Positions 1 through 25,194 of a stretch of 28,713 nucleotides of DNA are shown here, piece by piece. Position 1 is the stretch's first letter, and each line of letters begins with the position of its first letter. The stretch is taken from positions 1 to 28,713 of IMG/VR virus record IMGVR_UViG_3300033144_003554. One strand, written 5' to 3'. The DNA is from a virus. The notes under the pieces were generated by a model that was not told where the DNA came from, searched no databases, and saw only the letters and a list, made by a program, of their open reading frames with translations. The position numbers and the translations under genes are program-made.

Positions 1-13
1 ATATAATCTATCC

Positions 14-418: not shown

Positions 419-422
419 CCAG

Positions 423-1897: not shown

Positions 1898-1936
1898 TAC
1901 CACACTAAGCACTAAATATAATATAAGGATATAACT

Positions 1937-3976: not shown

Positions 3977-3994
3977 TAATTGATAGGGGGAAAA

Positions 3995-4984: not shown

Positions 4985-4996
4985 GGATAACAAAAA

Positions 4997-6211: not shown

Positions 6212-6249
6212 TAACTACTATTGTTCCCGTAAGGATATGACCCCTTGCT

Positions 6250-6299
6250 GGGTTAACAAATAATATATTAACCCCTGGGGGTAACTCCCCAGGATTAAT
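6250..6299 (+). promoter_or_regulatory. Two overlapping hairpins after the coat gene
   Basis: The first hairpin is GGGTTAA (6250-6256) with TTAACCC (6268-6274). The second is CCTGGGG (6274-6280) with CCCCAGG (6287-6293), which can be extended outward by ATTAA (6266-6270) pairing with TTAAT (6295-6299). The extended second hairpin and the first compete for the same bases. No T-run follows. The AAAGGATT ribosome site of the next gene comes immediately after. Likely roles are partial termination, mRNA protection or processing that sets coat above downstream genes. Confidence 0.6.
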
Positions 6300-6310
6300 A
6301 AAGGATTATT

Positions 6311-7015
6311 ATGGCAACAACAAACCAAGCTGTTATTGAGCGAGCAATGAAACTCTTAGGGTTGATTGATCCTGGTGAATCAGCAACAGCAGATGAGCTT
6401 ACAGAATGTACATATATAATCAAAAACCTGCTACATGAATATCAAGAGTTATATGGTGTAGCTGCTAATAATAATAGTATAACAATAGCTGTCGTGGCTG
6501 ATTCAACATCTGTAACCTCATCAACATTAGAAGCTAATCCTATTATGGCCTTCACTTATATTGATACTGATCCTACTGATGTATCAGAAGTTAATATGCT
6601 ATCAGTTAGAAATTGGAGTGCTAAATATAAAACAACAGCCACAACATCGGGAACAACAATTAAAGATATAAGTATATCTAAAGATGAGGATGGTGGTTGC
6701 AATATACTTGTTGCTCCAAAACCATCAGCTGATTCCAGCTTAGTTATAATGTATGAAACTCTATTTTCCCAGGTAGACCAGACTCCTTCCGGTGCTATAG
6801 CTATAAGATTTGAAGATGAGAGATTTCTTATAAATGCCTTGGCTATTGAAGTAGCTCCAATGTTTGGCGTTGAACCTGCATCGCAAGTATATAGAACATA
6901 TGGTATTCTTGAAAGTAAATTAAAGCGTAGGCATGCCAGAGATGTTATGACTAAAAATATTAAGTTCCCTTCAATTATGAATGGAAAATCTTCTTATAAC
7001 TTTATGGATGGTTAA
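6311..7015 (+). CDS. Tail accessory (head-completion) protein, P22 gp4-like
   Basis: In P22 twelve gp4 subunits bind under the portal and plug the packaged head. This 234-residue product has the family's look: an N-terminal helical start (VIERAMKLLGLIDPGES), a conserved helix ending in LLHEYQELYG, a beta-rich middle, and a C-terminal helical segment (YRTYGILESKLKRRHARD). P22 gp4 is shorter (166 residues). It sits directly after coat, exactly where gene 4 lies in P22, which strengthens the call. The start at 6311 has AAAGG seven bases upstream. The next gene begins one base after its stop. Confidence 0.75.
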   Translation: MATTNQAVIERAMKLLGLIDPGESATADELTECTYIIKNLLHEYQELYGVAANNNSITIAVVADSTSVTSSTLEANPIMAFTYIDTDPTDVSEVNMLSVRNWSAKYKTTATTSGTTIKDISISKDEDGGCNILVAPKPSADSSLVIMYETLFSQVDQTPSGAIAIRFEDERFLINALAIEVAPMFGVEPASQVYRTYGILESKLKRRHARDVMTKNIKFPSIMNGKSSYNFMDG

Positions 7016-7016
7016 C

Positions 7017-8222
7017 ATGAAAATACCTTTTATTGGAGGGTCTTATCGTGGCTACTCCAGGAAAGTTAATAATCAAGAAACACAAAATTTCTACCCAGCA
7101 CACAATCAACAATCATCTAAGCCTTTTACAATGTATAATTGTGAAGGGCTTAAAAACTTTTTAAGACCTGTAACTACTCCCACTGGTGCCGATACTGATT
7201 ATACAATATTTACACAACCCACAACACCTCCTATAAATACTAAAATTATTGAGCCACCTACAGGTGTTGTAGATGAGGGGATATTTGGCAAGGATGGTAG
7301 TTCTAATGATCTCCATTTTATCGGTACTGATATTTTTGCATTTGCAAGTGATCAGAATGTAGGAGATCAAGATGCTTATATGCGAAAGTTTGACACCCTT
7401 ACTAATACCACAACTATTGAGTTGACTCTTATAGGTAATTATCATAACTGCTGGGGTACATTACAAGCAGCAGACGAGACGATGTATTATGGAACGTGGA
7501 CATATATTGGATGTTCAGTAGGGTCACTTTTAAAATATAATCCAGTAACCAAAGCAATGGATATTATCGCTACTGGTTCAGGATTATTGAATAGTGGGAC
7601 ACATATGGCAGAGGACACATCAACTGGTTTTATATATATGACATCCAGCTCAGGTGGCCTTGATCACTGGGACACAGTATCGGGAACAATGACACATGAT
7701 ATAAATCAGAGAGGAACACAAACATGGCCTGATGGTTTATTTTATCAAAATGATGAATTATGGATGGTTGAGCAAGGTAAGATATTTCAAAAAGTAGGAA
7801 GCGCATGGTCTGAGGTTGTACCTATTTATGCTGGCGGTGGAGCGCTTATGCCGATATTTTATAAAGATAAAATCTATGCATGGAGTACAACCAGAGATGT
7901 TATTATGTGGGATTTTGCTGCTGCTACATGGGTTAAGTTTTGCGGTGATAATGGAGTAAGCGGTAATAATATTAAGAGCGAGATTATATTTGGTGACGAT
8001 AATACAGTTTATACTATAGGGTGGAATCCTGCATCAGGCGGATTTGCTTCTTTAGATTCTTATGATATAGTAGGGGACACATGGACTAAAGGAACGTTTG
8101 GGCTTCACGGAGGCAATTCAGGTGGACATAACTGTAAGTTTTTAATATTAAATAATAATCTATATGCTACTATCTGTGCTACTGGCTATACAGTCTCATA
8201 TCTCAATAGGTTTACACATTAA
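7017..8222 (+). CDS. Chimeric tail protein: gp10 N-terminal module fused to a beta-propeller
   Basis: I start this at ATG 7017, one base after the gp4-like stop, rather than at upstream in-frame ATG 6981, because MKIPFIGGS is the conserved beginning of gp10-type tail-hub proteins. The product has 401 residues. Residues 1-46 carry the module signature (MKIPFIGG, Q20-E21, N24-F25, E43-GLK). After residue 46 the gp10 body is absent. Instead come Gly- and aromatic-rich repeats of a kelch-like beta-propeller (LLKYNPVTKAMDII, LDHWDTVSGTM, LWMVEQGKIFQKV, IYAWSTTRDVIMWDF, LDSYDIVGDTW). Inference: an adhesin or sensor blade anchored to the gp4/portal ring by a borrowed gp10 anchor. It is the last gene of the + strand unit. 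Confidence 0.75.
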   Translation: MKIPFIGGSYRGYSRKVNNQETQNFYPAHNQQSSKPFTMYNCEGLKNFLRPVTTPTGADTDYTIFTQPTTPPINTKIIEPPTGVVDEGIFGKDGSSNDLHFIGTDIFAFASDQNVGDQDAYMRKFDTLTNTTTIELTLIGNYHNCWGTLQAADETMYYGTWTYIGCSVGSLLKYNPVTKAMDIIATGSGLLNSGTHMAEDTSTGFIYMTSSSGGLDHWDTVSGTMTHDINQRGTQTWPDGLFYQNDELWMVEQGKIFQKVGSAWSEVVPIYAGGGALMPIFYKDKIYAWSTTRDVIMWDFAAATWVKFCGDNGVSGNNIKSEIIFGDDNTVYTIGWNPASGGFASLDSYDIVGDTWTKGTFGLHGGNSGGHNCKFLILNNNLYATICATGYTVSYLNRFTH

Positions 8223-8247
8223 AAGTAGCGTACTAAGTACGCTACTT
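8223..8247. terminator. Bidirectional terminator between convergent units
   Basis: An 11-bp perfect stem AAGTAGCGTAC, loop TAA, GTACGCTACTT lies directly after the propeller gene stop (+) and 10 bases beyond the nrdD stop (-). On the + strand it is followed by AATTTATATTTTATTT. On the - strand it is followed by a short T-run (CTTTTAA). Its place between two converging gene ends fits a shared intrinsic terminator. Confidence 0.85.
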
Positions 8248-8257
8248 AATTTATATT

Positions 8258-10273
8258 TTATTTAAATGGTAGTACATTATAAAGCGTTCTGTTTTTAAAC
8301 TCTGATTGCTTCCCATCATTCCACTGGCTAATGGGTCGGATATAGCCTGCTACTCTGCTAAAAACTTCTGCAGGTTTTCCACATTTTTTACAGACTTTCT
8401 GCTCACCTTTTAAATATCCATGCTGTTGACATATACTAAATGTCGGTGTAATTGAAAAGTATGGGAGCTTGTAGTTTTCAACAATTGATTTTACAAGTGC
8501 TTTTACCTGGCCTGGTTCAATTTCTTGTGGTGTGTACATATGCATAACCGTACCACCTGTATATCTACATTGCAACTCATCTTGATGGTCAAGGGCATAC
8601 TTATAATTTTCTGTACAATCAGCCGGCAGCCAAGTACTATTTGTTAGATAGTCTTCTTTATGGTTTATAAGTTTTGCTAATCTTCTTGTTGCCCCTTCGG
8701 CCGGCGTTGCTTCTAAATTATAAACACAGTTATCTCTTATTTGAATTTGAGTTAACCATCTGTTTAATTCATCCATTATATTTAATGCAAATTCTTTCCC
8801 TTTTTCAGTATCTATCCCGCCCATGCCCAATCTTTCAAGAAGCTCATGCATTCCAATAATACCTATTGTACTAAAATGATTACTAAAGTAAGCTCCTGTC
8901 TTATCTTTAATTCCTTGTAGATAATATTTACTATAAGGGTAAAGCCCTTGTTCCATATATCTTTCAATTGTTTTACGTTTAATCCGTAAACTTTGAATAG
9001 CAAGCATAAATGCGCTTTTTAATCTGATAATAACATCTTTATTATCACCCCTTATATCTGCCAGTGCTGGTAAATTAAGAGTTACAACACCTATACTTCC
9101 AGTAAGAGGATTAGACCCAAACAGACCCCCGCCTCTTTTGCGTAACTCTCTGATATCTAAGGATATTCTACAACACATCGACCTTGTATCTTCGGGGTTC
9201 ATATCTGAATTGACAAAGTTTGCAAAGTACGGTATACCATATTTACCTGTCATTTTAAATATTGCCTTAGCTATTTTACCATTCCAATCAAAGTCTTTAG
9301 TTATATTATAAGTAGGAATAGGAAAGGTAAACACCTGGCCTTTACAGTCGCCCTCACTCATCAATTCACAGAACGCTAAATTGATCATATCCATTTGTTT
9401 TTGGAAATCACCATATGTTCTATCAGTTTCTATACCTTTTATTTTTACTGGTTGATCCTTAAATATTGGAGAGCATTCTATATCCATTGTTATATTGGTA
9501 AATGGTACCTGAAACCCTGCCCTTGTAGGAATATTAACATTAAATATAAAACTCTGCATAGTCTGTTTTACTTGCTTATATGTCAGCTTATCAAAATATA
9601 TATAAGGAGCAAGTAGTGTATCGAAATTACTAAGGGCAATAGCCCCAGCCGCTTCACCCTGGAGTGTATAAAAGAAGTTTACTATTTGGCCTACTGCACC
9701 GCTAAAGTGTTTTGGTGGTGCGCTTTCTGTTTTAAAATTAACACCACAGAACCCTTTAATTAAAAGGTCTTGTAAATCCCAGCCAAAACAGTAACCAGCA
9801 AGATGTCCAAGATCATGTATGTGGAAGTCACCTCGCACATGAGCATCTTTAATCTCTTTAGGGTATAATACATCTAACCAGTAATCACTTAATACTTTTG
9901 TGGTTATATAATTATTTAATCCCTGAGCTGAATAACTTGTGTTACTATTTTCTTTAATGCTCCAGTCAAGATTTTTTACATAATCAGCCACCACCGTATC
10001 TGAGTTTAAATTTCTTAACCGTTCACGCTGATATCTAAATTTTATATATGCCTTAGCAGTTTTTTTATATTTAGAAGTCATTAAAGTATCTTCAACAATA
10101 TCTTGTATCTCTTCAATAGTTATTAAGTCTTTACGGATGATAAATTTGTATGATAAAGCTTCTGCCTCCTCGCTATCAAATTCACCTGTGGCCTCTCCTG
10201 CCTTAGTTATTGCGCTAATTATTTTACTGTGGTCATACTCAACTATCTGTCCGTTTCTTTTTTTAACTTCCAT
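8258..10273 (-). CDS. nrdD: Anaerobic (class III) ribonucleoside-triphosphate reductase
   Basis: This glycyl-radical enzyme reduces ribonucleotides to deoxyribonucleotides without oxygen. The 671 residues hold an N-terminal ATP-cone (about 1-90, starting MEVKKRNGQIVEYDHSKI), a catalytic barrel with the Cys-Cys pair in SMCCRIS and the family sequence GGGLFGSNPLTGSIGVVTLN, a zinc site (CQQHG then CKKCG), and the radical motif RVAGY, with Gly643 as the expected radical site. All key elements are present and length is normal, so it should be functional. Activation needs the radical-SAM protein NrdG, which is not in this window. It is the last gene of the - strand array, with AAAGGGG inside the end of the preceding gene, an unusual place for a nucleotide-metabolism gene. 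Confidence 0.97.
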   Translation of the reverse strand: MEVKKRNGQIVEYDHSKIISAITKAGEATGEFDSEEAEALSYKFIIRKDLITIEEIQDIVEDTLMTSKYKKTAKAYIKFRYQRERLRNLNSDTVVADYVKNLDWSIKENSNTSYSAQGLNNYITTKVLSDYWLDVLYPKEIKDAHVRGDFHIHDLGHLAGYCFGWDLQDLLIKGFCGVNFKTESAPPKHFSGAVGQIVNFFYTLQGEAAGAIALSNFDTLLAPYIYFDKLTYKQVKQTMQSFIFNVNIPTRAGFQVPFTNITMDIECSPIFKDQPVKIKGIETDRTYGDFQKQMDMINLAFCELMSEGDCKGQVFTFPIPTYNITKDFDWNGKIAKAIFKMTGKYGIPYFANFVNSDMNPEDTRSMCCRISLDIRELRKRGGGLFGSNPLTGSIGVVTLNLPALADIRGDNKDVIIRLKSAFMLAIQSLRIKRKTIERYMEQGLYPYSKYYLQGIKDKTGAYFSNHFSTIGIIGMHELLERLGMGGIDTEKGKEFALNIMDELNRWLTQIQIRDNCVYNLEATPAEGATRRLAKLINHKEDYLTNSTWLPADCTENYKYALDHQDELQCRYTGGTVMHMYTPQEIEPGQVKALVKSIVENYKLPYFSITPTFSICQQHGYLKGEQKVCKKCGKPAEVFSRVAGYIRPISQWNDGKQSEFKNRTLYNVLPFK

Positions 10274-10274
10274 T

Positions 10275-13200
10275 TTACTTTGTCCCCTTTAAAAATTTTT
10301 TAATATTTTCTTCTTGTTTGCCAACTGCTGTAGGTAGTATTTCATTCTGCAACATAACGGCGATTACGGCCATTTTTTCCTCTTTGCTTCCAGCGCTCAT
10401 CATTCCCTTGACGTATGCATCACCATATTTTTTAACATAACTTCTTTGTGCTTTTGATAGTATCCTACTGGAAGGGATTGTCATTATAAGTTTCTTTTCT
10501 TCCAAAGACAAGCCTTTTTTATTTATTAATTTATTTACAATTTGTGTTACTTGTTTATTCTGGTCTGCTTTCATTTTTCTAACTTCATTTATTCCTTGCC
10601 ATATCTCTTCTGAAACACCACGGTCATTTACCTTTACATATCTTTTAAGAAAATTTAACCCATATGATCCAAGTAGTTCTTGGTACCACTCTCTACTTTC
10701 ATTATCTTTTGGTATTTTATAAAAAGTGTTTAACCCAAATGTTTTATATACATGCTTTGCCATAGCTTTTTTACCAACAACTTCTTTCCTGGTAAAGTTA
10801 TCTATTACTGGCTTACCTGAGATAGCATACGAATATAAATCTTTCGCTACTATTAGATATGGATTCATTCCGGCGTATGGAGCTAACCCCTCAGCTATTA
10901 ATGATATCGCACCTTTGTCACCAAAAAGTTTACCTTTAAGAGACTTTTCTACAACCGCCCCTATAATTCTTGAGTCATAATCACTTGGCAGTGTAAGATA
11001 AATACTTTTACCAGATTCCGTTAATCCAAGAGGTACTATATTGTAAAATGTTCTATCATATTCCGAGACACCTCTCAGTATCCTTTGATTCCATGCGATC
11101 ATATCTGCCGTCATATCACTGGCATCATCATCATTACCTCTTAAAGCACTTATTGTCCATGTAGCTATAGCTCCGGTTGCTGCCCATCTTATTAGTCTTG
11201 GTGCAATATCCGCCATACCTGCTTTCCAAAAGTATGCAGCAGGGTTTTCTTTTGCAGCTTCTACTGTAGCAAGCATACCTCTTATATGAATATTAGAGAA
11301 CAGGTATATATTATTCATAACAATAGCCCCTGTTCCTTTTTTCTTATAGTTTGGAGTACCAATACGCTCTCTAACTCTATGGGCTATCTCTGTATCAGAT
11401 AATTTTGTATGCTCTCTTAAATATTTATAACCAGACAATTTACTTGTTAGCTCCATAATCTGTCCTAATTGTTCTATTTGGTTTCCTGCATATTTAACCC
11501 CTCTCATAATTCTACTGTCCATCATTCGTCTTTGGACTTCTACTTGCCCAGGAGATATAGAATCCTTAATACTGTCTGCTATCATCTGTAGCTCCTCTTC
11601 TGTTGACAGTGCATTCCTTGCAGACATTGCCCTCTGTATAGCAAGCATCCTACCTGCTCCCATTTCTTTTATATCTCCAGAAACAATATCACGCTTTACA
11701 AACGCCTTAGATTCTTTAATAGAATTTTTATAAGCCTGGAAGAGTTTATACATATCTCTTATTTTTACTTCTGGGTTTTTGGCAACAGTTGACATAAAAT
11801 CAATAGGTACTGCAAATGCTAACCAAGCTGGGTTCATAGACACCAGTATGTTTTTTATAGGCTTCATCATAGCGTTGATTAACTTACCTATAAATCTTGG
11901 TGTGCCCTGATCAAAATTAAATATCTCAACAAATGCCTTTGGCACAAGATATACTTCAGCCTCTCCATTCTCCATAATTTTCATTACAGATAATCCAGAC
12001 TTACCTTTACTGGCTGCATCAATCATAGAACTTGTAACAACTTTCTGCAAGCCTCTTTGTTTAGCTGCTATATGCGTAGCGTTGTTAGTTTTTAATAAAA
12101 AATCAACTAATTTTCTTTTGGCATTATTAATTATAGACGCTCTCATTATGGCTATATTTTTATCTATTGTGGCCATAAACGGATTTTCTATTCCACTGAA
12201 TGTGCCTACCTGTTTAAAAATTGTTGATGATACATCGTTGCTTTTTCCTTGTACAAGTCCTTTCTTTTCAAAATGTTTCGTCACATTCCATGTAGCATAG
12301 TCTATAACATTTTCTTCTATCTTTTTTACAAGTTCCGGACTAAACAACCCCGATTCTATATAAGGCATTATCAATTTTGCATTAAGAGCTTTAAACTTTT
12401 TAGCAACATCAAATATGGCATTTGCTTTTTCTGCACCATAGACTTTAGATAGATTTTTTAAATCTTGCCCTGCTGTTTCTGGTGTGGTAAACAATGGATG
12501 CTGTTGTATCTTTGAGCCTGAAACTCTTTGCTCAAATAGTATTATACCAATCTCTTCTGGTGTTAGTTTTTTATCTTCAAGAAGAGCTACTATATCCTTT
12601 TTAAGATCTTGCATGTAAACACTTACTTCACCAGACATATAAGCCAGAGACTCAAGCTCCCTTTTTACAGAGTTGATAGCTGTATCTACTGCTGCACGAG
12701 TTTTCCCTTTATATTGTTTTGCTATATCTTTAAATCCCTGTAGGCTATCAGCATCTTTGTCGGATAAAACCTTACTTGTAAACACTTTGATTTTCTTTAA
12801 AGTGGGCTGATCTTCTTTTGCAATCTTTATATCTTTTTTTTCTTTGGCCTCTATATGCTCTTCAAACATTGTTGCAATGCTTTTTAATCTTGCTTCTGTT
12901 TTTTGCTTAACACCTCTTATACCTAATATTGGCAAGATAGCTTTAAGTAAAGGTTTATTCCCTTTTAGGTTTCTAATGATAGCACTATAAAATTCAGGGG
13001 CTATCTCTTTTACTTTTTCAGGAGCTATCATAATAGCTCCTATACCATCAGCAAGAACTTCTGATTTACTAAACAAATAATCTCTATTTTTTTTGGTTAA
13101 ATTTCTAATAGCTTCTGGATTTTTATAAAACTTACTTAAATTTGGCCTCCATAGCATTCTAAACTTTTGCCCTGCTATTAATTCTTTTGTTGATAGTTCT

Positions 13201-16522: not shown

Positions 16523-17203
16523 TTATTTTTTCTCCATTCCTTTCCATGTTGCGTAAGCTCCTAAGCCCTGCTGTATACCTTGCATTAATGGGCTTGCTGC
16601 TGACCGCTCTTGATACCTTTGCCCTGCCATCTGTGTCAATGCATTTCCGTACTGGTTCGATGTATTGGCCATAGTAGTAGCCATTTGGCCTGAACCCTGC
16701 ATCTGCATATTTGCTTGACCTGTTGCTGCGTTAAATCCTTGCTGTGACATTTGCTTATATGGATCCATTTTTTGATAATATCTATTAATAAAGTTTTGGT
16801 ACTCGTTTGATGCCATGCCCTGTGACTGCTCCTGTAAGGCACTTAATGTCTGACCGCTAAGAGAACTACCTCTTGCTGCTGCACTTCGCTCCACGGCTTT
16901 ATTGGCTTGTTCCATCCTATATTTATAACCAGGACTTTCTTTAAATTCACCTGCACCTTTTGATAACATTTGTTGATATTTTCCAAGAGCATTAGCACCT
17001 GCTTGCCTCCATGGTGCTACATCTCCCCTTGCTGTTTCAAGGGACTCTTTTTGAAAAGCTAAAGTCTCTCTTCCAGACTGTTGCTGCATTTCTGCAATTC
17101 TTAACATAGTTTTTCGCATTCGTCTTGATTCTTTTTTGGCTGATCGGCCACCCATAATTCCACCGGCTGCACCAAGCGCGCCTATTGCTAAAGCTGCTAC
17201 CAT
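16523..17203 (-). CDS. Internal virion / DNA-transfer protein (gp7 position)
   Basis: The 226-residue protein begins with a Gly/Ala-rich hydrophobic segment (about residues 1-17), followed by a basic helical part, and contains the motif FKESPGYKYRMEQA followed by SAAARGSSLSGQT and ASNEYQNFINRY. This pattern recurs in podovirus ejection proteins encoded next to the transglycosylase protein. The C-terminus is Gln/Met/Gly/Ala-rich. It is first of the three-gene ejection block, the position of P22 gp7 (229 residues, almost the same length). Its ATG overlaps the gp10-body stop as TAATG, with GGAGGAAG ahead, so translation is probably coupled. Confidence 0.8.
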   Translation of the reverse strand: MVAALAIGALGAAGGIMGGRSAKKESRRMRKTMLRIAEMQQQSGRETLAFQKESLETARGDVAPWRQAGANALGKYQQMLSKGAGEFKESPGYKYRMEQANKAVERSAAARGSSLSGQTLSALQEQSQGMASNEYQNFINRYYQKMDPYKQMSQQGFNAATGQANMQMQGSGQMATTMANTSNQYGNALTQMAGQRYQERSAASPLMQGIQQGLGAYATWKGMEKK

Positions 17204-18621
17204 TAGTTTCTTCCTCCTTCAAGCTCCATATCTGCTCCAAGCACAACTACTTTTACTGGAGCTACGGTTCTTAGTTGATAGTTTCTGTTTCTGGCTCTAC
17301 CGAAATTCCTCATTGATATCCTTTTTTTTAATGTAGGGTCTGTCCCTATACTTGCTGTTCTTTCAGTAGAGTATGTATTACCAATATCGTCTGTCCATGA
17401 TATCATAACTTGTGGATCAGAGCAAGTCCATAAATCAGACTCAACCTCATCCCACCAATCAGTATCTGGTGGCGTATGCCCTGTGTTGTCCTCAGAGGTA
17501 TATGAGACATAATATTTACTATCATAGGTACAACAATGACCAGTTTTGTAAGTTACCCCTGAGTCGTAAGCTGCGACTTCTGGTGGGTAGCTACCAGAGT
17601 CATCAGGGATAAACCCTGTACCCATCTCCATATCAAGATTTAATTTTTTATGTTTAACAAACTTCTGATCTTTATCTATTCCTTGTGTAACTCTTACCCT
17701 CTCAACACTATGGAAATTATCAGTATAAGTATCAGTATCTAACTCATATACATTTCCAAGTTCATAATCGCCTATGAGGTGTTTTCCGTTAAAGTGTGTG
17801 TAAGCATTACCTCTCCATCTGCTATTATCTGGGTATGATGCCCGTTGATGCCAGTAACCAGTAGAAAAGTCATATGCCCAGGTTTTATTTGCTGTGGCAA
17901 ATGTTATCACATAATATGTATGACCGTTCTGGCTGTAACCAAGTGCCACAGCTGACTCTCTATCTGTTACTGAATAAGTCGATATCTGATAAGCAATCTG
18001 TTGTGTTGATATTGGCTTAGCTGAATATCCATCTGTGGTAACTATGTCGCCTTCTGGTGTAAGCCAAACGAGATTATTATTAATAACCACAAGCGAACTT
18101 CTTGATACAACTCCAGACTCTATAACTCCACCATCAATAGGACTAAATGGAAAATAAGCCCCTGCTGCGTTATAATATTTCTGTATGGTTTGTTTCCCAG
18201 CTACTAATAACTGACTGTTAACAGCTTCAACCCCTACGATATTATCTGGGGCTGCTTCTGCCTCTGCAAAGTCTAATGCATCCCATGTAGAACCATCATA
18301 TAGACCAGAGCAGTACAGTAGGTCGGAGTCAGGCTTGCTTATAACAAAGAACCCATCAATATAAGTAAGATCGGATGCTCCTGGAAAGTCTGGATCAGAT
18401 ATCTTCCCCCATGAACTATCTGAAAACTTAAATATATACCCATCAGTACCATCAACAAGCATCAGTTGGTTGCCATTGCTTCTAACTTTAACTGGTGTTG
18501 TTGTGCTATCTAACGCACCAAGGTAGGTAATATTGTCACTGGTATCCATTTTATAAAGGTAAGCCCCATGCACAATATAAACAAACTCTGGCGTACCCCA
18601 TAATGCTCTGACTTTAGCCAT
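17203..18621 (-). CDS. Tail hub / packaged-DNA stabilisation protein gp10, body only
   Basis: The 472 residues match the body of P22 gp10-type tail hubs: QLMLVDGTDGYIF, DPDFPGASDLTYIDGFF, LYDGSTWDALDFAEAEAAPD, a 'GHTYYVITF' to 'WAYDFSTGYWHQR' stretch, and the end RNFGRARNRNYQLRTVAPV. The N-terminal module that normally precedes this (MKIPF..GG to EGLK) is missing. The first residues, VRALWGTPEFVYIVHG, align with what follows the module in relatives. I choose ATG 18621 because its A is shared with the previous TGA (TGATG) and GAGGAG lies eight bases upstream. An upstream in-frame start at 18705 would lie inside the previous gene and looks non-coding. A carbohydrate-binding-like insert sits near 350-398. 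Confidence 0.85.
   Translation of the reverse strand: MAKVRALWGTPEFVYIVHGAYLYKMDTSDNITYLGALDSTTTPVKVRSNGNQLMLVDGTDGYIFKFSDSSWGKISDPDFPGASDLTYIDGFFVISKPDSDLLYCSGLYDGSTWDALDFAEAEAAPDNIVGVEAVNSQLLVAGKQTIQKYYNAAGAYFPFSPIDGGVIESGVVSRSSLVVINNNLVWLTPEGDIVTTDGYSAKPISTQQIAYQISTYSVTDRESAVALGYSQNGHTYYVITFATANKTWAYDFSTGYWHQRASYPDNSRWRGNAYTHFNGKHLIGDYELGNVYELDTDTYTDNFHSVERVRVTQGIDKDQKFVKHKKLNLDMEMGTGFIPDDSGSYPPEVAAYDSGVTYKTGHCCTYDSKYYVSYTSEDNTGHTPPDTDWWDEVESDLWTCSDPQVMISWTDDIGNTYSTERTASIGTDPTLKKRISMRNFGRARNRNYQLRTVAPVKVVVLGADMELEGGRN
17430..17574 (-). other. CBM5/12-like insert within the gp10 body
   Basis: Residues about 350-398 read AAYDSGVTYKTGHCCTYDSK, then YYVSYTSEDNTGHTPPDTDWW. This matches the 'Y..g..Y..Gd.v.y.gk.Yvs...n.g..P....W' pattern of small chitin/carbohydrate-binding modules (families 5/12) that are often grafted onto phage structural proteins. 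The gp10 fold resumes at QVMISWTDDIGN. The resemblance is by eye and rests on spaced aromatic and Gly/Pro positions. Confidence 0.55.
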
Positions 18622-19100
18622 CAAACTAACTCCTCTACTATAATTTTTACTGTTACAAGAAAATCCTGCCCAGCCTGAGACGCTCCAGCAAAACTTAAAG
18701 CACAACCTGGTTCTATGATGAAATCTTCGGCATAAGAAGTGGTATCTTTAAATAAATACTGTTGCATAAACCATCCATTAATACCATAATAACTTAAAAA
18801 GTTATGTGCATTTTTCCAATAGAAAATTATTTCTGGGTTTTCGCTTTGCCAATGAGCCATTAGCCTCATAGGAAATGGCCAGGCTCCAGAGTCAAATTCG
18901 CCATCGGCTATTTTAGTCATATAGATCGCAGGGTCTAAATTTCTCGGGACATAATTAAAAAATTCAACGTTTCTAACTTTATAATAATGATTACTGTCCG
19001 GCCTGTTATATAAACTTGCAATATTTTCCTGAGTTGTAGAACTTGAAAATAAAAATCCTGAATGTATCCATAATTTAGTTGCCTCTTTATCTTTGAGCAT
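18621..19100 (-). CDS. Hypothetical protein between adhesins and gp10 body
   Basis: I do not recognise this 159-residue protein. It is rich in aromatic residues (Phe, Tyr, Trp) and Asn, has no membrane segment or signal peptide, and ends in a strand-like FLVTVKIIVEELV. That is typical of a compact beta-rich virion protein. A strong AAGGAGGG precedes ATG 19100, and its stop shares a base with the gp10-body start (TGATG). Tight coupling to gp10 suggests a tail-hub partner made in similar amounts, but this is inference. Confidence 0.8.
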   Translation of the reverse strand: MLKDKEATKLWIHSGFLFSSSTTQENIASLYNRPDSNHYYKVRNVEFFNYVPRNLDPAIYMTKIADGEFDSGAWPFPMRLMAHWQSENPEIIFYWKNAHNFLSYYGINGWFMQQYLFKDTTSYAEDFIIEPGCALSFAGASQAGQDFLVTVKIIVEELV

Positions 19101-19127
19101 AACCCTCCTTTATATTATTTCTTTGCA

Positions 19128-19409
19128 TTATTCCTCCAGTTCTTTTATGCTTTCACCTTTAACAAGTGTTCCCAAAATGGAAACAAGTTTGTGAGTTACG
19201 TTTCTATTTTGTTCTGCTGTCTGCTGAACACCCATTAATCTTTGATCCCAATTTAATTGAAGTAGCAACGATCGTTTTGGCGCACAGTCCCATACTGTTT
19301 TCGTTTGGTTGCTTTTTTCTTCAATCCAAGAAGTCTTAACTCTAAATGGGCATTTATCTTTTTTCTTGTAAAACATACATCCTTTAAAACATGTAGCATC
19401 TATACTCAT
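19128..19409 (-). CDS. Small cysteine-containing hypothetical protein
   Basis: I place the start at ATG 19409, which shares its A with the previous stop (TAATG) and has GGGGGAAAA nine bases upstream, rather than at 19451, which would overlap the previous gene by 43 bases. The 93-residue product has cysteines at 7, 11, 20 and 42 (CFKGC, KCPF, WDC), a spacing that could bind zinc or an iron-sulphur cluster, followed by a helical C-terminus. It resembles no family I can name. Confidence 0.75.
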   Translation of the reverse strand: MSIDATCFKGCMFYKKKDKCPFRVKTSWIEEKSNQTKTVWDCAPKRSLLLQLNWDQRLMGVQQTAEQNRNVTHKLVSILGTLVKGESIKELEE

Positions 19410-19726
19410 TATAATTTTCCCCCATCTATCACTTTCTTTGTTCTTGTCCATGTAATATTATCAGTGTTTACATTTACTTTTACAGAATAACTACACTCTG
19501 TGGCTGTTATATCAGCTTCTATATCTGCAAGAGATAGATCGCTTGATCCTATTTCTGGTTTAAGATATCCCTCAAGCCTTGTAATTAGTCCATCTATTGT
19601 AACATCGTCTATCTGATAATTTGTTTGATTCTTTGTAAATGTTACTCTATAATGACCTTCTTCTGCATGAAATTCTAAGTCGTCTACTGTTCCCATTTCT
19701 TGAAATAATGTGTGTAAACTCTTCAT
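19409..19726 (-). CDS. Hypothetical protein in the tail-gene cluster
   Basis: This is a 105-residue acidic protein with alternating polar and hydrophobic stretches (HYRVTFTKNQTNYQI, SYSVKVNVNTDNITWTRTK) suggesting beta-strands, and no membrane segment. The start is supported by AGGATAAA directly before ATG 19726, and the stop overlaps the next start (TAATG). Function is unknown. Position among tail genes suggests a minor virion or assembly role. Confidence 0.75.
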   Translation of the reverse strand: MKSLHTLFQEMGTVDDLEFHAEEGHYRVTFTKNQTNYQIDDVTIDGLITRLEGYLKPEIGSSDLSLADIEADITATECSYSVKVNVNTDNITWTRTKKVIDGGKL

Positions 19727-19733
19727 TTTATCC

Positions 19734-19919
19734 TCATATGTTGTTTTTTTTTAAAGACTTGACATAAAGATCAAGGGCTGCTCTGTCAACTACTTTGTCA
19801 ATTTCGTTAGCAAGGGCAATCCGTGCTAACTTAATATGCCGTTTTATATGTTTGTTTAAATCTAATGCCATCTCGGTTTCTGTAAAACAAACTGGTTTAG
19901 CTTGATTTGTTGCTGACAC
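19734..19919 (-). CDS. Small basic helical hypothetical protein (GTG start)
   Basis: This 61-residue protein is probably a single helical hairpin (LNKHIKRHIKLARIALANEI, then DKVVDRAALDLYVKSLKK). The GTG at 19919 is chosen because AGGAGG lies eight bases upstream, overlapping the TAG stop of the preceding tip gene. No family is recognised. Confidence 0.65.
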   Translation of the reverse strand: MSATNQAKPVCFTETEMALDLNKHIKRHIKLARIALANEIDKVVDRAALDLYVKSLKKNNI

Positions 19920-19928
19920 TTTATCCTC

Positions 19929-20408
19929 CTATGTTGTTTTTGTGCAAACCACACTAATTAATGCTTGTGGCCTCCATGTTGTTAATGCTTGTGAATTACC
20001 TACTCCGTGAGTATGTGTGTTGTCTTCACCAGACTCTCCAGTCTCTGGATCAGTCTCTGTTGTTGGCATACCACCTGAATCTTTGCCCCATTCTGCTGGA
20101 TAATCCGTATTTTCTAAATATCTACAAGGGTAAAGATGTGTATGAGATGGTAGTTCAGCTATTGTTAACTGCCATCCCGCCATGGTATGAGTATGAGTGT
20201 TAATAACTTCAACACTTACAATACTACCTCCATCATAACCTCTGTATTTATTAACTGTATCTGAGATAGCCACAAGATGATCGCCTACGCTTTCGATTAC
20301 TACCCAGTATGTAGGTGCTGCTGCTTGGTAAAATATCATTTGTGTGCCATCATCAAGAACGCTATGGTCAATTTCTACATCTGAATGTGTTAATATGTAT
20401 TCAGCCAT
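19929..20408 (-). CDS. Fibre-tip paralogue 3 with HxH motifs
   Basis: This 159-residue free-standing protein resembles the metal-binding tips of phage receptor-binding fibres. It has FYQAAAPTYW near residue 27, a GD...D...GY segment, three HxH clusters (NTHTHTM, PSHTHLY, THTHGVG), and the ending TTWRPQALISVVCTKT. In T4 gp37 and gp12 such HxH motifs coordinate iron in a trimer needle. It is clearly related to the two upstream genes. It has no stalk, so it must attach to another protein or act as a short adhesin. Its ATG overlaps the previous stop (TAATG). Confidence 0.8.
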   Translation of the reverse strand: MAEYILTHSDVEIDHSVLDDGTQMIFYQAAAPTYWVVIESVGDHLVAISDTVNKYRGYDGGSIVSVEVINTHTHTMAGWQLTIAELPSHTHLYPCRYLENTDYPAEWGKDSGGMPTTETDPETGESGEDNTHTHGVGNSQALTTWRPQALISVVCTKTT

Positions 20409-20893
20409 TATGGTATATCCTTTTTAAATAGTGCTGATACTGCTGCTGCTGGCCTCCAACTTGCTGTATACCCATCATCCCCAGATACTCCATGCTCATG
20501 TTCTTGCCCTCCTCCAGCCTCTGTTGTAGGATAATCTTGATTCCAGCTATCTATATTATAATATTTGTAGTTATAAAATGGATGACCTCCAAGCCCTACT
20601 TGTTTTTTTCCAATAAAATAAACATGTGTATGGGTCGGCATTTCAGCAAGAGTCAGGGCGTGAGCGGCTGTTGTATGTATGTGGTCATCGATAGTCCATG
20701 TACCAGCATCCGATCCTGATGTCTCTTCTGAATCATAACCAGTTGTAGAATCCCTTAGCCCTACGAGTGTGTCTCCATGCCCTGCTACTATTGTCCAGTT
20801 ATCAGGGGCGGCTAATTGATATAAAATAATTGTTGTTCCTGGACTCCATACTGACTTTATTAATGTATTACTTGTATGTATTGATTCTCCCAT
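20408..20893 (-). CDS. Fibre-tip paralogue 2 with HxH motifs
   Basis: This 161-residue paralogue has LYQLAAPDNW where the others have FYQAAAPTYW, GDTLVGLRD, DDHIHTTAAHALTLAEMPTH followed by THVY, then QEHEHGV and SWRPAAAVSALFKK. The segment between the second and third HxH clusters, expected to be the exposed, receptor-contacting loop, is Tyr/Gly-rich and differs completely from its sisters. The ATG follows the preceding TAA by one base, with GGACGGA as a weak ribosome site. Role inferred: receptor binding or decoration. Confidence 0.8.
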   Translation of the reverse strand: MGESIHTSNTLIKSVWSPGTTIILYQLAAPDNWTIVAGHGDTLVGLRDSTTGYDSEETSGSDAGTWTIDDHIHTTAAHALTLAEMPTHTHVYFIGKKQVGLGGHPFYNYKYYNIDSWNQDYPTTEAGGGQEHEHGVSGDDGYTASWRPAAAVSALFKKDIP

Positions 20894-20894
20894 C

Positions 20895-21392
20895 TTATCC
20901 GTCCTTATTACATATAATACTTACAATAACTTTAGGATACCATGTTGAGTCCATATCTAATGAACTTGAGTCTGTAAGATAGCCATGATTATGAGAGTCA
21001 TTACTACCGGTTGATTGGGTAGGGACATCGTCAAGCATAATAATATGGCCATAGTTAGTATTCATCCAATACACATCATATGTTCCATTACCACCTGTGT
21101 CTCTGGTTACTGTATGGCTATGAGCTGGTATTTGAGCTGTTGTTAAATAATGGCTTCCAGTAGAGTGCTGATGGGCAATGCTATACCTTGTGCCTCTCAG
21201 TGTTCCTGGGTCGCCATCACTATAACCTCCGGATGCTGACGGATCAGATATACCAAGGAATCTGTCACCTACAGAACCGACAATGCTCCAGTATGTAGGT
21301 GCTGCGGCTTGATAAAAAACTCCTTTAGTTCCATTAGATAAAAACATTGAATCAAAATATTCACCAGTAAAAGGCCAATCTATATCTGCCAT
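20895..21392 (-). CDS. Fibre-tip paralogue 1 with HxH motifs
   Basis: This 165-residue first member of the tandem family has FYQAAAPTYWSIVGSVGDRF, then AHQHSTGSHYLTTAQIPAHS and HTVT, and SHNHGYL, ending WYPKVIVSIICNK. The conserved frame (aromatic start, HxH clusters, W-P-x(3)-S-I/L end) is shared with the next two genes, while the loop between the second and third clusters is unique. It is translationally coupled (TAATG) to the upstream lone gp10 N-terminal module, which may be its anchor. Confidence 0.8.
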   Translation of the reverse strand: MADIDWPFTGEYFDSMFLSNGTKGVFYQAAAPTYWSIVGSVGDRFLGISDPSASGGYSDGDPGTLRGTRYSIAHQHSTGSHYLTTAQIPAHSHTVTRDTGGNGTYDVYWMNTNYGHIIMLDDVPTQSTGSNDSHNHGYLTDSSSLDMDSTWYPKVIVSIICNKDG

Positions 21393-21628
21393 TAATATAC
21401 CCTCACATTGTCATAATCTGATGGGCTGAAATATGATCCCCCACCCTGTGACATTAACCAATCTGTAGGAGCGAATCTTTTATGTGGCTTCAACCCTTCA
21501 ACTGGAATTAAAACCCTCTTTGGTTCTGCCCCTTGATTATCAATTTCTACTTTAAAATTACGACACTCTTGTATATCATCTGCTGGTGACAGAGCGTCTG
21601 ATGTGCCACCAACAAATGGAATTTTCAC
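21392..21628 (-). CDS. Stand-alone gp10 N-terminal module
   Basis: This 78-residue protein begins MKIPFVGGT and aligns without gaps to the start of the propeller protein at 7017 (K2-I-P-F5, G7-G8, Q20-E21, N24-F25), and then reaches EGLK at 44-47 against 43-46. In gp10-type proteins this segment leads straight into the hub body, but here only ~31 unrelated residues follow before the stop. The body is encoded separately at 17203-18621. The GTG at 21628 overlaps the preceding TAG (TAGTG), with AAAGG upstream. It probably assembles with the body in trans or anchors the coupled tip proteins. It could alternatively be a decaying fragment. Confidence 0.8.
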   Translation of the reverse strand: MKIPFVGGTSDALSPADDIQECRNFKVEIDNQGAEPKRVLIPVEGLKPHKRFAPTDWLMSQGGGSYFSPSDYDNVRVY

Positions 21629-21777
21629 TATTTACCTTTCTTCTTTTTTGGTGTTGGTTTATCTGAAAAGAAAGAATCTATCATACTTTTCTTTTTCTTT
21701 CTTTGTTTCTTTAATTTATCAGACAAACTCCCTTTGCCAGCTAATACATCTGCTGGCCGCCTTATTTTTTTTGCCAT
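21628..21777 (-). CDS. 49-residue Lys-rich protein
   Basis: This small ORF begins MAKKIRRPADVLAGKG and ends with a Lys-rich tail (TPKKKKGK). The middle (KLKKQRKKKKS) is also strongly basic, so nucleic-acid or membrane-surface binding is plausible. The stop overlaps the GTG start of the next gene (TAGTG), and the ATG lies two bases after the previous gene's stop, with AAAGGAAAA upstream. It fits the coupled array and is probably real. No family recognised. Confidence 0.6.
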   Translation of the reverse strand: MAKKIRRPADVLAGKGSLSDKLKKQRKKKKSMIDSFFSDKPTPKKKKGK

Positions 21778-21778
21778 A

Positions 21779-21928
21779 TTATTTTCCTTTTTTGGCTAAA
21801 AATTTTGAAAATACTTTAATGGCAGCAACGATAATATCATTGTGTTTGCTCTTACTTACTAAGACAATCTTTTCCGCGAACATTAAGCCAGCAAGAACTA
21901 TCCCTGCATGATTAAACAACCATTCCAT
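21779..21928 (-). CDS. 49-residue membrane protein, holin-like
   Basis: The product starts MEWLFNHAGIVLAGLMFAEK, with a hydrophobic segment at about 8-24, then a Lys-rich amphipathic helix ending FLAKKGK. One membrane span followed by a short basic cytoplasmic tail resembles minimal phage holins, with a pattern like 'vG.i.fAa.ivdKiv..tk.k.Dd.vw.aik'. AAAGGATAG precedes the ATG. It is the best holin candidate here, but no endolysin is next to it. Confidence 0.6.
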   Translation of the reverse strand: MEWLFNHAGIVLAGLMFAEKIVLVSKSKHNDIIVAAIKVFSKFLAKKGK

Positions 21929-21929
21929 T

Positions 21930-22037
21930 TTATCTATCCTTTATTTTTTTAAAAAGTTTTTTAATACCATCTATTGAAAAATCAAGAATTACAAATATAA
22001 TATATATAATCCCTATGTTACATAAAATATCTATCAT
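21930..22037 (-). CDS. 35-residue membrane microprotein
   Basis: The ORF starts MIDILCNIGIIYIIFVILDF and ends with a Lys-rich amphipathic stretch (KKLFKKIKDR), i.e. a single transmembrane helix with a positive tail. It is wedged between two other tiny genes with no free space. The ribosome site is a weak GGATGG. A lysis or membrane-modulating role is inferred from composition and position. Confidence 0.5.
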   Translation of the reverse strand: MIDILCNIGIIYIIFVILDFSIDGIKKLFKKIKDR

Positions 22038-22040
22038 ATT

Positions 22041-22118
22041 TTACCATCCATATAATGCTTTTAACATAGCTTCAATTTGTGGATACCAGTTTTCTATATT
22101 ACCTATCCAATAAACCAT
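22041..22118 (-). CDS. 25-residue Trp/Tyr-rich microprotein
   Basis: The frame encodes MVYWIGNIENWYPQIEAMLK plus ALYGW. Three Trp and three Tyr in 25 residues suggest membrane-interface binding. A textbook AAGGAGG lies five bases before ATG 22118, one of the strongest ribosome sites in the window, which supports translation despite the size. A hairpin (22131-22156) fills the gap upstream. Function unknown. Confidence 0.5.
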   Translation of the reverse strand: MVYWIGNIENWYPQIEAMLKALYGW

Positions 22119-22130
22119 TTTGCCTCCTTC

Positions 22131-22156
22131 GCTGCGCTCATCTTCGAGCACTCAGC
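22131..22156 (-). promoter_or_regulatory. GC-rich imperfect hairpin ahead of the microprotein genes
   Basis: On the - strand: GCTG, AGT bulge, GCTC, loop GAAGAT, GAGC, G bulge, CAGC. It lies between the stop of 22158-22418 and the AAGGAGG of the 25-codon gene. Its GC content stands out from the surroundings. No T-run follows, so a role in mRNA processing or in setting expression of the small genes is more likely than termination. Confidence 0.4.
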
Positions 22157-22157
22157 T

Positions 22158-22418
22158 TTACTTTGTGTCTGTTAAAATTAATCTTATTAGTTCTTGTTCT
22201 GTCCTTACCTGTTCTATCGCTATCATAACCGATTGGTGGCGGCTCTCTACAATTCTTTCTATTTTTTCTTCCATTCGATAGACATCTTGCTTGTCCATCT
22301 TTTTGTTGAGGACTGAATATATTGTGGTTATACTACCACCAAGCATAATAATACTTGTTAATATTAAACCAGCGAGTGTTAACTTGTCAAATGATTTAAC
22401 ACTATATGAAGCTGACAT
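22158..22418 (-). CDS. Small membrane protein with coiled-coil tail (possible spanin or holin)
   Basis: I use ATG 22418 (MSASYS), preceded by GGAGGG, rather than 22430, whose ATG overlaps that ribosome site. The 86-residue product has a transmembrane segment (LTLAGLILTSIIMLGGSITT, about residues 12-33), then a charged coiled-coil helix. This type II layout fits inner-membrane spanins and some holins, but no partner outer-membrane lipoprotein is visible. The start follows the preceding TAA by one base. Confidence 0.7.
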   Translation of the reverse strand: MSASYSVKSFDKLTLAGLILTSIIMLGGSITTIYSVLNKKMDKQDVYRMEEKIERIVESRHQSVMIAIEQVRTEQELIRLILTDTK

Positions 22419-22419
22419 T

Positions 22420-22689
22420 TTACCCTCCATTATTTAAATTTTTTTCTTCTGTGATAATTAATTCAGACAATGGATAAACTTTTATTTCTGTTGTAAAATC
22501 TGGGCAATCGTTATTTTTATTTTTAATTAAACAACTTATATATGTAAAAGTATAGCTAATTGGAGCTTTTTCAAATACAATATGCTTTTGACATGTATAT
22601 TGATCTCTATTGCCACATTCAAGACAAAACACATCATTTGAATTGTCTATATTTCTTCTTGTTATTTCTTCTAATATTCTTTTACTCAT
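22420..22689 (-). CDS. Small zinc-knuckle-like hypothetical protein
   Basis: The 89-residue protein has C22-x2-C25-x7-C33-x2-H36 (CLECGNRDQYTCQKH), a spacing like a small zinc-binding site, followed by a beta-like stretch and further cysteines (SCLIK, NDCPDF). AAGGGAAAG precedes ATG 22689. It stands between the stalk gene and the small membrane genes. Function unknown. Confidence 0.65.
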   Translation of the reverse strand: MSKRILEEITRRNIDNSNDVFCLECGNRDQYTCQKHIVFEKAPISYTFTYISCLIKNKNNDCPDFTTEIKVYPLSELIITEEKNLNNGG

Positions 22690-22723: not shown

Positions 22724-22989
22724 TTATTTTCTAATTAGCAATAAGCTTTATAATCTCTGCTAATTTTTTCTTTATATTCGCAATATCTTTTTTGTTTGTG
22801 GCAATAGCATCTATGTTTGTTTCTATGTTATCTGCATTTGTAGATATATTATCTGCATTTATACTAAGATCATCTACAAATACAATTATATCATTTTTAT
22901 TTGTATCTATGTCATTTTTGTTTGTTTCTATCTTTTCCAATATGTCTATTATATTTCTATCCATTATATTCTCCTTATTTTCTAATTAG
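22724..22989. repeat. 15-bp direct repeat flanking the stalk gene
   Basis: ttattttctaattag occurs at 22724-22738 and 22975-22989, at the 3' ends of the stalk gene and the tail-fibre gene. The two genes read it in different frames (LIAN-stop and LLIRK-stop), so it is conserved as DNA and not as protein. This suggests the stalk gene arose by, or is a substrate for, recombination with the fibre 3' end. Confidence 0.7.
22731..22964 (-). CDS. Free-standing heptad-repeat stalk protein
   Basis: The 77 residues are almost entirely seven-residue repeats of the type ETNKNDI, DTNKNDI, SINADNI, STNADNI, ETNIDAI, ATNKKDI. This is a trimeric coiled-coil pattern as in fibre stalks and the P22 tail needle (gp26). 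Similar repeats (TNTTDIATNADDIDDLEADV) occur within the adjacent tail fibre. AAGGAGAATATA precedes ATG 22964 and starts in the fibre stop codon. It could be a needle component, a fibre-stalk extension or a duplicated remnant of the fibre. Confidence 0.75.
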   Translation of the reverse strand: MDRNIIDILEKIETNKNDIDTNKNDIIVFVDDLSINADNISTNADNIETNIDAIATNKKDIANIKKKLAEIIKLIAN

Positions 22990-25194
22990 TAACAACTCTG
23001 TTGTTGAAATTGCTATTCCTACCATAAGATTTGTTTTTGTCAAAGCAATACTTAAATCTTCGTCATAATAATATTTTTTACCAATTTCTAAACTGGATAA
23101 ACTATCAGTAACAGAGCCGTCCATGGCTACAGGTTTTGATTGTCCAGTTGTACCAGTCTCATTTAATATACCAATTGCCATATTTCCGTTTGTGGTATTA
23201 CCATCATCATAAACAAATAAGTAGGCAGTAGGCGTGGTTATAAACCCCACAACATATTTATAACCACAAAGCCTGACACTTTTAAGGGATAGATATGCTT
23301 GTGCTTCATATTCTAAAGGAGCGCGAATTTCTGTAAAATCTCCTATAGCAATAGCCTCTACAATTGCAGAACCACCAGAATAAGAATAGTTTACAAAAAA
23401 GTTTCCATCGAGAGCGCTCTTGCATCCAGACGCTCCAGTAAATCCACCATAATAAAAAAAATTAGGGCTACCGCTTGTAACTGTAGTTCCGACATCACAA
23501 ACTATTGTTTGCCCATAGTTTGATGCTGTTACATTTTGAACTATTAATACTATTCTTTTTCTGGCTATATTAACAGCATCGTAAATAGCTATTCTTGCGG
23601 TAATAATTGCCGCTCCTGCTCCCATAGAAATTTGAGCTGTAGCCCCTGTGCTTGTAACTGTTCCTACCCTTGCATAGCATTCAGCCGAATGCCCATAAAA
23701 AAAAACAAACTCATCATTAAATCCTGTCTCGGCTAATTTCATTGTCCATGCAGAAAATGATTGGAAATTATTAACATATCCGAGAGTGGATGTGCTACCA
23801 GAGATTGTCACTGGTCTAACTTTAAGACTTGTTCCTTCTACGAACCCAGCAACACACACGTCTTCATTAATCTTAACTAAATCAGAATAAAGACAGGGAG
23901 CTGCATTAAATGTAACTGTATTTCCAAATGTAAATGTGTCGCCAGAGATTGTGGCTGCAACACCTAATATATTTTGGTTGTTTTTATACTTGATAAATAT
24001 TGTGTCCTCGGAGACACGCTCTATAGCCATATCTGTAGGCACATTAGTTGTAAACTGATATGCCGTTCCATTCTCTATTAAATTTCCTTCGGCGATAGTA
24101 GATAGAATAACTGTTCCACGATAACCATTATCTTCATCAGCAAAAACAGTACATATTAAGCTTTCATTTATTACGCATATGTCATGGTCTCCGGCATCAC
24201 CATAATGAGATTTAAGATCTCCCTGGTCTATACATTCTTTTATTTTTGGTGTTCCGCTATCGTCATACGTATAAACCAGTTTGCCTGCTGATATATTCTC
24301 TCCAAGTGTAAACTCTCTATAAGGGATAACGTCATTAATAACAGCCACATCAGCCTCAAGGTCATCTATATCATCTGCGTTTGTGGCTATATCAGTTGTA
24401 TTAGTATTTACAAAACCTCCAAGAGTATTTATATCGTCTACATTATCGGCTATATCATCTATATTTACGTTTATTAATTCTAATTCATCCCCTCTGTTTT
24501 TGTTTAGATGTATTAATCCTTCTTCAATAATAATACCTACAAAATAATCAGTCTCTACAGTGCTGATTGTATTATCTGCCTGTAGATATAAGACATCTTG
24601 TGGAGTAAGGTCTCCAATTTCTTCTTCCCAGTAAAAACAACCGCCAAACAATATGCCGGTTACATAATCATCTGTAACTCCATCATCAGTTAATATACCA
24701 CAACAATATTTATAATCCATTGCAGATATATCAAACTGATAACCCTTGACTGTTGCTACTGGCATATCAAAGTAAAACAGCTCACCCTTGGACATATTTT
24801 CACCAAGCAGCACATCAACCACCTGAGTGTTAGCCATTAAAGCCTCAATGTTTGCAGTGTTTTGTGACACTCCAGCATGATCAGCCCCTCCGCCCAGTCT
24901 GTGATTAGTGTTTAATGTTATGGCGTTAGTGTTAGCACCTTCGCTGGCCTGGAGTGCTGCAATATCTGTCTGGTTATCTGTTACCAGCGAATGATCCGAA
25001 CCGTCACTTATTCTATGGGCATCATTTAAAACAACGTGAGAGTGGCTTGTACCGTCAGAGGTTGTATGTGTTGACTCTTCCTGTATAACCTCATCTATTT
25101 TTCTTCTGACTTGCAAAAACCACAATACCCATGCTGGAGATACAATGCCTTCTTTATTGGATATTTTATCCTCTGGTGGTGCTGGAGTTGTCAT
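22975..25194 (-). CDS. Tail fibre / receptor-binding protein
   Basis: In this 739-residue protein the N-terminus (SPAWVLWFLQVRRKIDEV, residues 19-36) looks like a podovirus fibre anchor. It is followed by His-rich repeats (SDGTSHSHVVLND, SDGSDHSLVTDN, GGGADHAGVSQN). Heptad stalk segments follow, and two related blocks start LGENMSKGELFYFD (about 128) and LGENISAGKLVYTY (about 294). The C-terminal ~400 residues are Gly/Ser/Thr-rich beta-structure with propeller-like strands. There is no depolymerase motif I can see and no chaperone gene next to it. It overlaps the primase gene by 29 bases, with AAGGAATG before ATG 25194. Confidence 0.82.
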   Translation of the reverse strand: MTTPAPPEDKISNKEGIVSPAWVLWFLQVRRKIDEVIQEESTHTTSDGTSHSHVVLNDAHRISDGSDHSLVTDNQTDIAALQASEGANTNAITLNTNHRLGGGADHAGVSQNTANIEALMANTQVVDVLLGENMSKGELFYFDMPVATVKGYQFDISAMDYKYCCGILTDDGVTDDYVTGILFGGCFYWEEEIGDLTPQDVLYLQADNTISTVETDYFVGIIIEEGLIHLNKNRGDELELINVNIDDIADNVDDINTLGGFVNTNTTDIATNADDIDDLEADVAVINDVIPYREFTLGENISAGKLVYTYDDSGTPKIKECIDQGDLKSHYGDAGDHDICVINESLICTVFADEDNGYRGTVILSTIAEGNLIENGTAYQFTTNVPTDMAIERVSEDTIFIKYKNNQNILGVAATISGDTFTFGNTVTFNAAPCLYSDLVKINEDVCVAGFVEGTSLKVRPVTISGSTSTLGYVNNFQSFSAWTMKLAETGFNDEFVFFYGHSAECYARVGTVTSTGATAQISMGAGAAIITARIAIYDAVNIARKRIVLIVQNVTASNYGQTIVCDVGTTVTSGSPNFFYYGGFTGASGCKSALDGNFFVNYSYSGGSAIVEAIAIGDFTEIRAPLEYEAQAYLSLKSVRLCGYKYVVGFITTPTAYLFVYDDGNTTNGNMAIGILNETGTTGQSKPVAMDGSVTDSLSSLEIGKKYYYDEDLSIALTKTNLMVGIAISTTELLLIRK

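Follow-up and report, generated by a model that had tools for sequence, protein, structure and literature searches.

Can the tail hub of a P22-type podophage be encoded in separate pieces? The question is raised by IMGVR_UViG_3300033144_003554, an uncultured-virus record of IMG/VR type that is linear and without end repeats; its whole length of 28,713 nucleotides (28.7 kb) is called the window here. In P22 gp10, Sf6 gp8 and the Pam1 and Pan3 hubs (PHROG 578, 'head closure Hc3' or 'packaged DNA stabilization protein'; solved structures of these relatives are 8eap, 8tvr, 7sg7, 7eeq and 9vyg), the N-terminal segment and the body form one chain. The window encodes a body homologous to these proteins over its full length and a module that matches the N-terminus of the family, but here the two lie in separate genes. 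Module and body complement each other as parts of a single family, and the module is present twice apart from the body.

The hub body and its N-terminal module

The tail-hub (gp10/Hc3) body is encoded at 17203..18621 on the minus strand and has 472 amino acids (aa), comprising the propeller and the C-terminal part of the platform without the N-terminal module. Its gene starts with ATG at 18621, has AGGAG upstream, and overlaps the stop of the preceding gene as TGATG. The protein matches PHROG 578, the P22 gp10 family, with an expectation (E) value of 1.1e-94 over profile positions 60-429 of 486; it also covers positions 56-505 of 507 of a hidden Markov model (HMM) of full-length gp10 and positions 2-451 of 453 of an HMM of the body. 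In an alignment with homologues (12 from sequenced phages, one from an IMG/VR contig), its start, MAKVRALW, corresponds to the [PA].[IV]RG motif of the family in the first propeller strand. An intact gp10 from another IMG/VR phage (L003) aligns with it from body residue 4 onward. Membership in PHROG 578 reflects homology in the propeller and the C-terminal platform, and the N-terminal platform segment is absent from the polypeptide. Judged from these alignments, the 472-aa protein is an otherwise full-length gp10, cut at the predicted boundary between platform and propeller.

The C-terminal platform region of the body contains an extra stretch of about 60 residues (AYDSGVTYKTGHCCTYDSKYYVSYTSEDNTGHTPPDTDWW, about 17445-17590, minus strand), and two relatives, L006 and L009, have other inserts there. 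This stretch is reminiscent of small chitin-binding modules, with no match in Pfam.

The candidate for the absent segment is a 78-aa protein encoded at 21392..21628 on the minus strand (GTG start at 21628), in which 50 residues with gp10 homology (1-50) are followed by a private tail of 28 residues. Taken alone, this protein had no match in Pfam or PHROG. An HMM built from 89 intact gp10 N-termini ranked it second among the 764 stop-to-stop open reading frames (ORFs) of the window (E = 2e-4), with 16.3 bits against a maximum of 9.0 in 20,000 shuffles. With L003, a close homologue, left out of the HMM, the E value was 0.009 and the score 11.0 bits against a shuffle maximum of 9.7. When the 78-aa protein was used alone as the query, it led to the same L003, a 38-kb phage whose intact 460-aa gp10 begins MKIPFVGGHYKGYS; residues 1-46 of the two proteins are 41% identical. 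Its BLASTP matches all run from N-terminus to N-terminus (residues 1 to 32-47), and they are either intact gp10s or the module-propeller protein described below. The sole match in the phage collection (E = 2, insignificant when taken alone) falls on the N-terminus of an intact gp10, immediately ahead of the body match of that gp10. On the 507-position gp10 profile, the 78-aa protein covers positions 2-50, the second module covers 1-50, and a gap of 5 positions separates them from the body. These comparisons identify the 78-aa protein as the missing gp10 N-terminal module. The split, with its coordinates, strand and gene content, is as the initial annotation described it, and the 78-aa protein does have profile similarity to gp10 N-termini. 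Among the other sampled gp10s, none has a body that naturally starts at this residue as an intact gene.

Another copy of the module, with a higher score, lies at 7017-8222 on the plus strand and had not been connected with the split. It forms the start of a 401-aa protein (counted from MKIPF, in an ORF that is open from 6981) and is the top match of the N-terminus HMM among the window ORFs (E = 4.6e-10). The gene lies in the canonical gp10 slot, beginning 2 nucleotides past the stop of a gp4-like tail adaptor gene (6311..7015, plus strand), which is the gp10 start site in related phages. The adaptor is recognized by its slot and by weak homology (PHROG 12985, E = 2e-14; about 24% identity to the gp4 genes that lie ahead of intact gp10s). 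The body is not in this slot directly downstream of the adaptor gene; it is located on the other strand, before the gene for the p32 ejection protein.

The 401-aa protein consists of the module (MKIPFIGGSYRGYS..EGLK, from 7017), a linker and about 300 residues of repeating propeller-like motifs. A divergent complete gp10 was ruled out, as the body HMM finds no match in this protein even without filters, and no Pfam match was found either. Residues of about 90-401 may form a Kelch-type propeller; a low-confidence model (predicted local distance difference test score, pLDDT, of 40) has 28 strands beyond residue 100 and matches propellers loosely. Foldseek matches of this model were set aside and not counted as evidence. 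The fusion is kept in three further contigs, L188 (98% identity), L098 (70%) and L192 (73%). In a comparison of the window with L098, the module has 92% identity and a nonsynonymous-to-synonymous substitution ratio (dN/dS) of 0.14, and the propeller part has 66% identity and a dN/dS of 0.21. The fusion is under purifying selection in these relatives. As far as sequence comparison can tell, the lineage retains the N-terminal piece of the hub in the hub gene slot, joined to an apparently unrelated propeller-like domain, and the module appears to have been detached and used at least twice.

Across all fetched viral and bacterial-genome loci, a non-random sample chosen by similarity and including near-duplicates, the module lies in the same ORF as the body in 233 of the 239 body-start ORFs. 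The six exceptions are a contig edge (L230), two frameshifted prophage copies (L213 and L216) and three divergent in-frame N-termini (L131, L244 and L246). The nearest gp10 relatives in IMG/VR have the module in cis in all cases with upstream sequence. With the module in cis in so many related loci, its absence from the window body is a derived state. A census of the pattern [MV]KIPF[VIM]GG in IMG/VR DNA returned 14 contigs (6 intact gp10s, 3 module-propeller fusions and 5 unrelated sequences), with no stand-alone module among them.

In L213 (Rhodanobacter glycinis) and L216 (Dyella jiangningensis), the prophage gp10 lies in adjacent fragments with the module just upstream of the body; these broken gp10s are degraded copies, not designed splits. 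Acetobacter phage phiAX1 (L015) was considered as a second split and was ruled out, the candidate being an unrelated basic protein and its gp10 being intact. In that phage, a 63-aa gene four genes before gp10 (11393-11584) is annotated as 'phage stabilisation protein', and the true gp10 is annotated as hypothetical.

Gene order and history of the separated parts

Three HxH tip genes and four small genes, all on the minus strand and connected by overlaps or short gaps, lie between the 78-aa module and the body, in agreement with the initial annotation. The tip proteins, encoded at 20895..21392, 20408..20893 and 19929..20408, match the tail protein family PHROG 5795 (E = 7e-8, 8e-9 and 6e-5, respectively) and are mutually paralogous, with 33-34% identity and E values of 5e-18 to 3e-26. 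The start of the first tip gene overlaps the module stop as TAATG. The 61-aa gene that follows (19734..19919) is coat-like (PHROG 283 coat, E = 2.4e-4), its product being 39% identical over 41 aa to residues 85-121 of the window coat protein. The 105-aa gene (19409..19726) has no credible family match in Pfam or PHROG. The 93-aa gene (19128..19409), which overlaps it, and the 159-aa gene (18621..19100), whose stop overlaps the body start, have no match in either database. The phage collection contained no match to the second tip protein, the module-propeller fusion or the 159-aa gene. The starts and stops that overlap between neighbours argue against chance ORFs.

The plus-strand block (1-8222) contains the terminase, portal, scaffold and coat genes, the gp4-like gene and one further gene. 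The minus strand carries, in reading order, a thymidylate-synthase-like gene, a primase, a long fibre, small genes, the 78-aa module, the three tips, the four small genes, the hub body, the p32-type DNA-ejection protein (16523..17203, directly downstream of the body; PHROG 598, E = 1.4e-24), a transglycosylase ejection protein, a 1581-aa protein and NrdD. With the large ejection protein as bait, no relatives of this minus-strand array were found. A 739-aa putative fibre or needle protein (22975-25194, minus strand) has no relatives in any library, and its start (SPAWVLWFLQVRRKIDEV) resembles by eye the N-terminus of a 170-aa gene after gp10 in L003. Several tiny genes with one predicted membrane stretch, holin-like by eye, lie directly upstream of the 78-aa module gene (21629-22430, minus strand). 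The phage-encoded NrdD, an anaerobic ribonucleotide reductase with an ATP cone (8258-10273, minus strand), adjoins the convergence of the two structural blocks and suggests an anaerobic host.

The initial annotation explained the split by an adhesin cassette inserted at the gp10 domain boundary, but this does not fit the canonical slot after gp4 on the plus strand, where the module is fused to a propeller-like protein. A single insertion of the tip genes into gp10 would leave one module before the tips and the gp4-adjacent slot empty. The presence of modules in both places implies at least one duplication and at least one fusion or relocation. A simple insertion is thus not the best history, and the gene order points to duplication, shuffling or relocation. 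In relatives, fibre genes occupy the interval between gp10 and p32, whereas in the window the body comes after the fibre and tip genes and immediately precedes p32. No long flanking repeats were found around the insert. A split intein or an intron-interrupted gene was ruled out, since an Rfam search of the whole window found no introns or other Rfam RNAs and inspection of both protein ends found no intein-like extension.

Proposed completion of the platform in trans and competing explanations

In the known podophage hubs, the platform that sits on the adaptor ring appears to be discontinuous in sequence, with a few strands from the N-terminus, then the propeller, and the rest from the C-terminus. 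In T7 gp12, a hub homologue, the N-terminal 45 residues contribute three strands to the platform barrel that binds the adaptor (PMC6702177). The platforms of T7 gp12 and of the SU10 nozzle protein are both built from N- and C-terminal parts around the propeller, and the platform binds the adaptor (PMC6702177, PMC9509320). The family in the window shares this arrangement, although T7 gp12 and the SU10 protein are single chains. An AlphaFold model of the intact L003 gp10 (pLDDT 77) has three N-terminal strands at residues 25-48, the propeller, and six C-terminal strands at 369-458, and it matches the P22 gp10, Pam1 and Pan3 hubs with query template modelling (TM) scores of 0.78-0.81.

The cut in the window separates the N-terminal platform strands from the propeller and the remaining platform, and from this we infer that the platform is completed in trans. 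The N-terminal platform segment would no longer belong to the hub chain and would be supplied by module-bearing proteins. The supplier would be the 401-aa fusion that occupies the former gp10 slot, the 78-aa protein produced alongside the tips, or both. The module strands would join the platform barrel of a body synthesized as its own chain, touch the adaptor and complete the ring. At the same time, they would dock cargo at the neck, the usual site of tail fibres. This cargo would be the variable propeller-like, putatively receptor-binding domain fused to the module, and possibly HxH tips bound to the module. A specific role of the module in anchoring the HxH tips, as had been proposed, is suggested by gene adjacency. 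Homologous structures make it plausible that the hub is assembled from two chains. We assign a probability of about one half to a split P22-type hub in which the N-terminal platform segment is supplied in trans and also docks tail parts; the physical completion, the docking and the adhesin role are all parts of this inference.

The completing partner may be the fusion, the 78-aa protein or both, and in the last case the partners within the hub would be mixed. Slot, score and conservation favour the fusion, and strand and the operon-like array shared with the body favour the 78-aa protein. A more specific proposal, which we regard as doubtful, is that the N-terminal platform strands of the hub have become a detachable docking tag in this lineage. 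The propeller-like adhesin and the tip-associated 78-aa protein would then compete for six identical platform gaps, and receptor-binding parts would be attached by strand donation and not by fibre-type anchor domains.

Several observations weigh against completion of the platform in trans. The 78-aa protein lacks several residues conserved in the family (Y10, R13 and P44), and it has no close relative that would show constraint on the protein itself. Residues 1-21 are disordered in the L003 monomer model, and the predicted structure of the fusion is not confident. Moreover, the record is a linear fragment, and an intact gp10 may lie in the unseen part of the genome.

The module might instead be an anchor alone, which binds the adaptor (or the hub) by itself and was borrowed for accessory adhesins, while the body works without N-terminal strands. 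This would agree with the fusion of the module to an unrelated, faster-evolving propeller-like domain and with its position next to the tip genes. Podophage fibres are also usually kept by N-terminal anchor domains while their distal parts swap (PMC10386132). However, a hub without the segment would be unexpected, given that nearly all related hubs hold it in cis and that the homologous T7 segment is structural in the platform. The fusion, moreover, occupies the gp10 slot and not a fibre slot, and we consider an anchor-only role unlikely. Another explanation, which we find quite improbable, is that the minus-strand array gathers duplicated fragments of structural genes and that the 78-aa protein is non-functional debris, in which case only the fusion, or nothing, would matter for the hub. 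The 61-aa coat-like gene keeps this explanation alive for the 78-aa copy, because it indicates that pieces of structural genes accumulate in the same array, and divergence is greater in the 78-aa module than in the copy carried by the fusion (15 versus 33.5 bits). Nevertheless, the 78-aa and 61-aa genes are both open and coupled to their neighbours through starts and stops, and MKIPF.GG and most conserved positions are intact in the 78-aa copy. Debris would also leave the missing segment of the body unexplained unless the fusion supplies it.

It is very unlikely that an intact gp10 encoded beyond the sequenced fragment is the true hub and that the body described here is a second, truncated paralogue, for example of a second ring. 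The record is a fragment without end repeats, the genomes of relatives are 35-40 kb, and phiGT1-like and Bcep22-like phages are known to carry duplicated hub-ring genes (tubeA; PMC10386132). Against this, the body is full-length except for the module and lies directly upstream of the p32 gene, the normal slot after gp4 is visible and is filled by the fusion, and no sampled locus has two gp10 bodies. An assembly artefact joining pieces of different phages is hardly credible, even though the plus and minus structural blocks converge in one contig and the module-tip junction (21300-21700) was found in the window record alone. An independent contig, L188, covers window positions 1-9361 with 98.4% DNA identity across 9.4 kb, including the fusion and the strand convergence and reaching into NrdD. 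A second, independent assembly, L002, is 100% identical across the tips-body-ejection stretch, including the junction between insert and body, and ends about 100 bp before the module. At the junction seen only in the window, the module stop overlaps the start of the first tip gene.

Among known systems, the two adjacent tubeA (adaptor) genes of phiGT1-like and Bcep22-like phages are likewise a non-canonical gene number for an essential tail-ring protein (PMC10386132), but those are two full adaptor paralogues, whereas the window has one hub protein split and its N-terminal piece shuffled. The N-terminal anchors of podophage fibres and spikes, such as the T7 gp17 type, also combine a conserved N-terminal piece with exchangeable distal domains. 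They are domains of the fibre family, however, whereas the anchor-like piece in the window is the platform segment of the hub itself. For the platform of T7, circular permutation was proposed, not detachment of the N-terminal strands (PMC6702177).

The window therefore contains a real, unusual variant of a known podophage hub, with its N-terminal segment detached and reused. Even if completion in trans fails, this would still be a case of domain shuffling in an essential tail ring protein. The split also offers a way to explain, in testable terms, why the platform fold noted in T7 is discontinuous in sequence. A natural split at exactly the platform/propeller junction, together with a second use of the N-terminal piece on another protein in the former gp10 slot, would mean that completion of the platform in trans is feasible, and phages would have a new way of attaching exchangeable host-binding parts.

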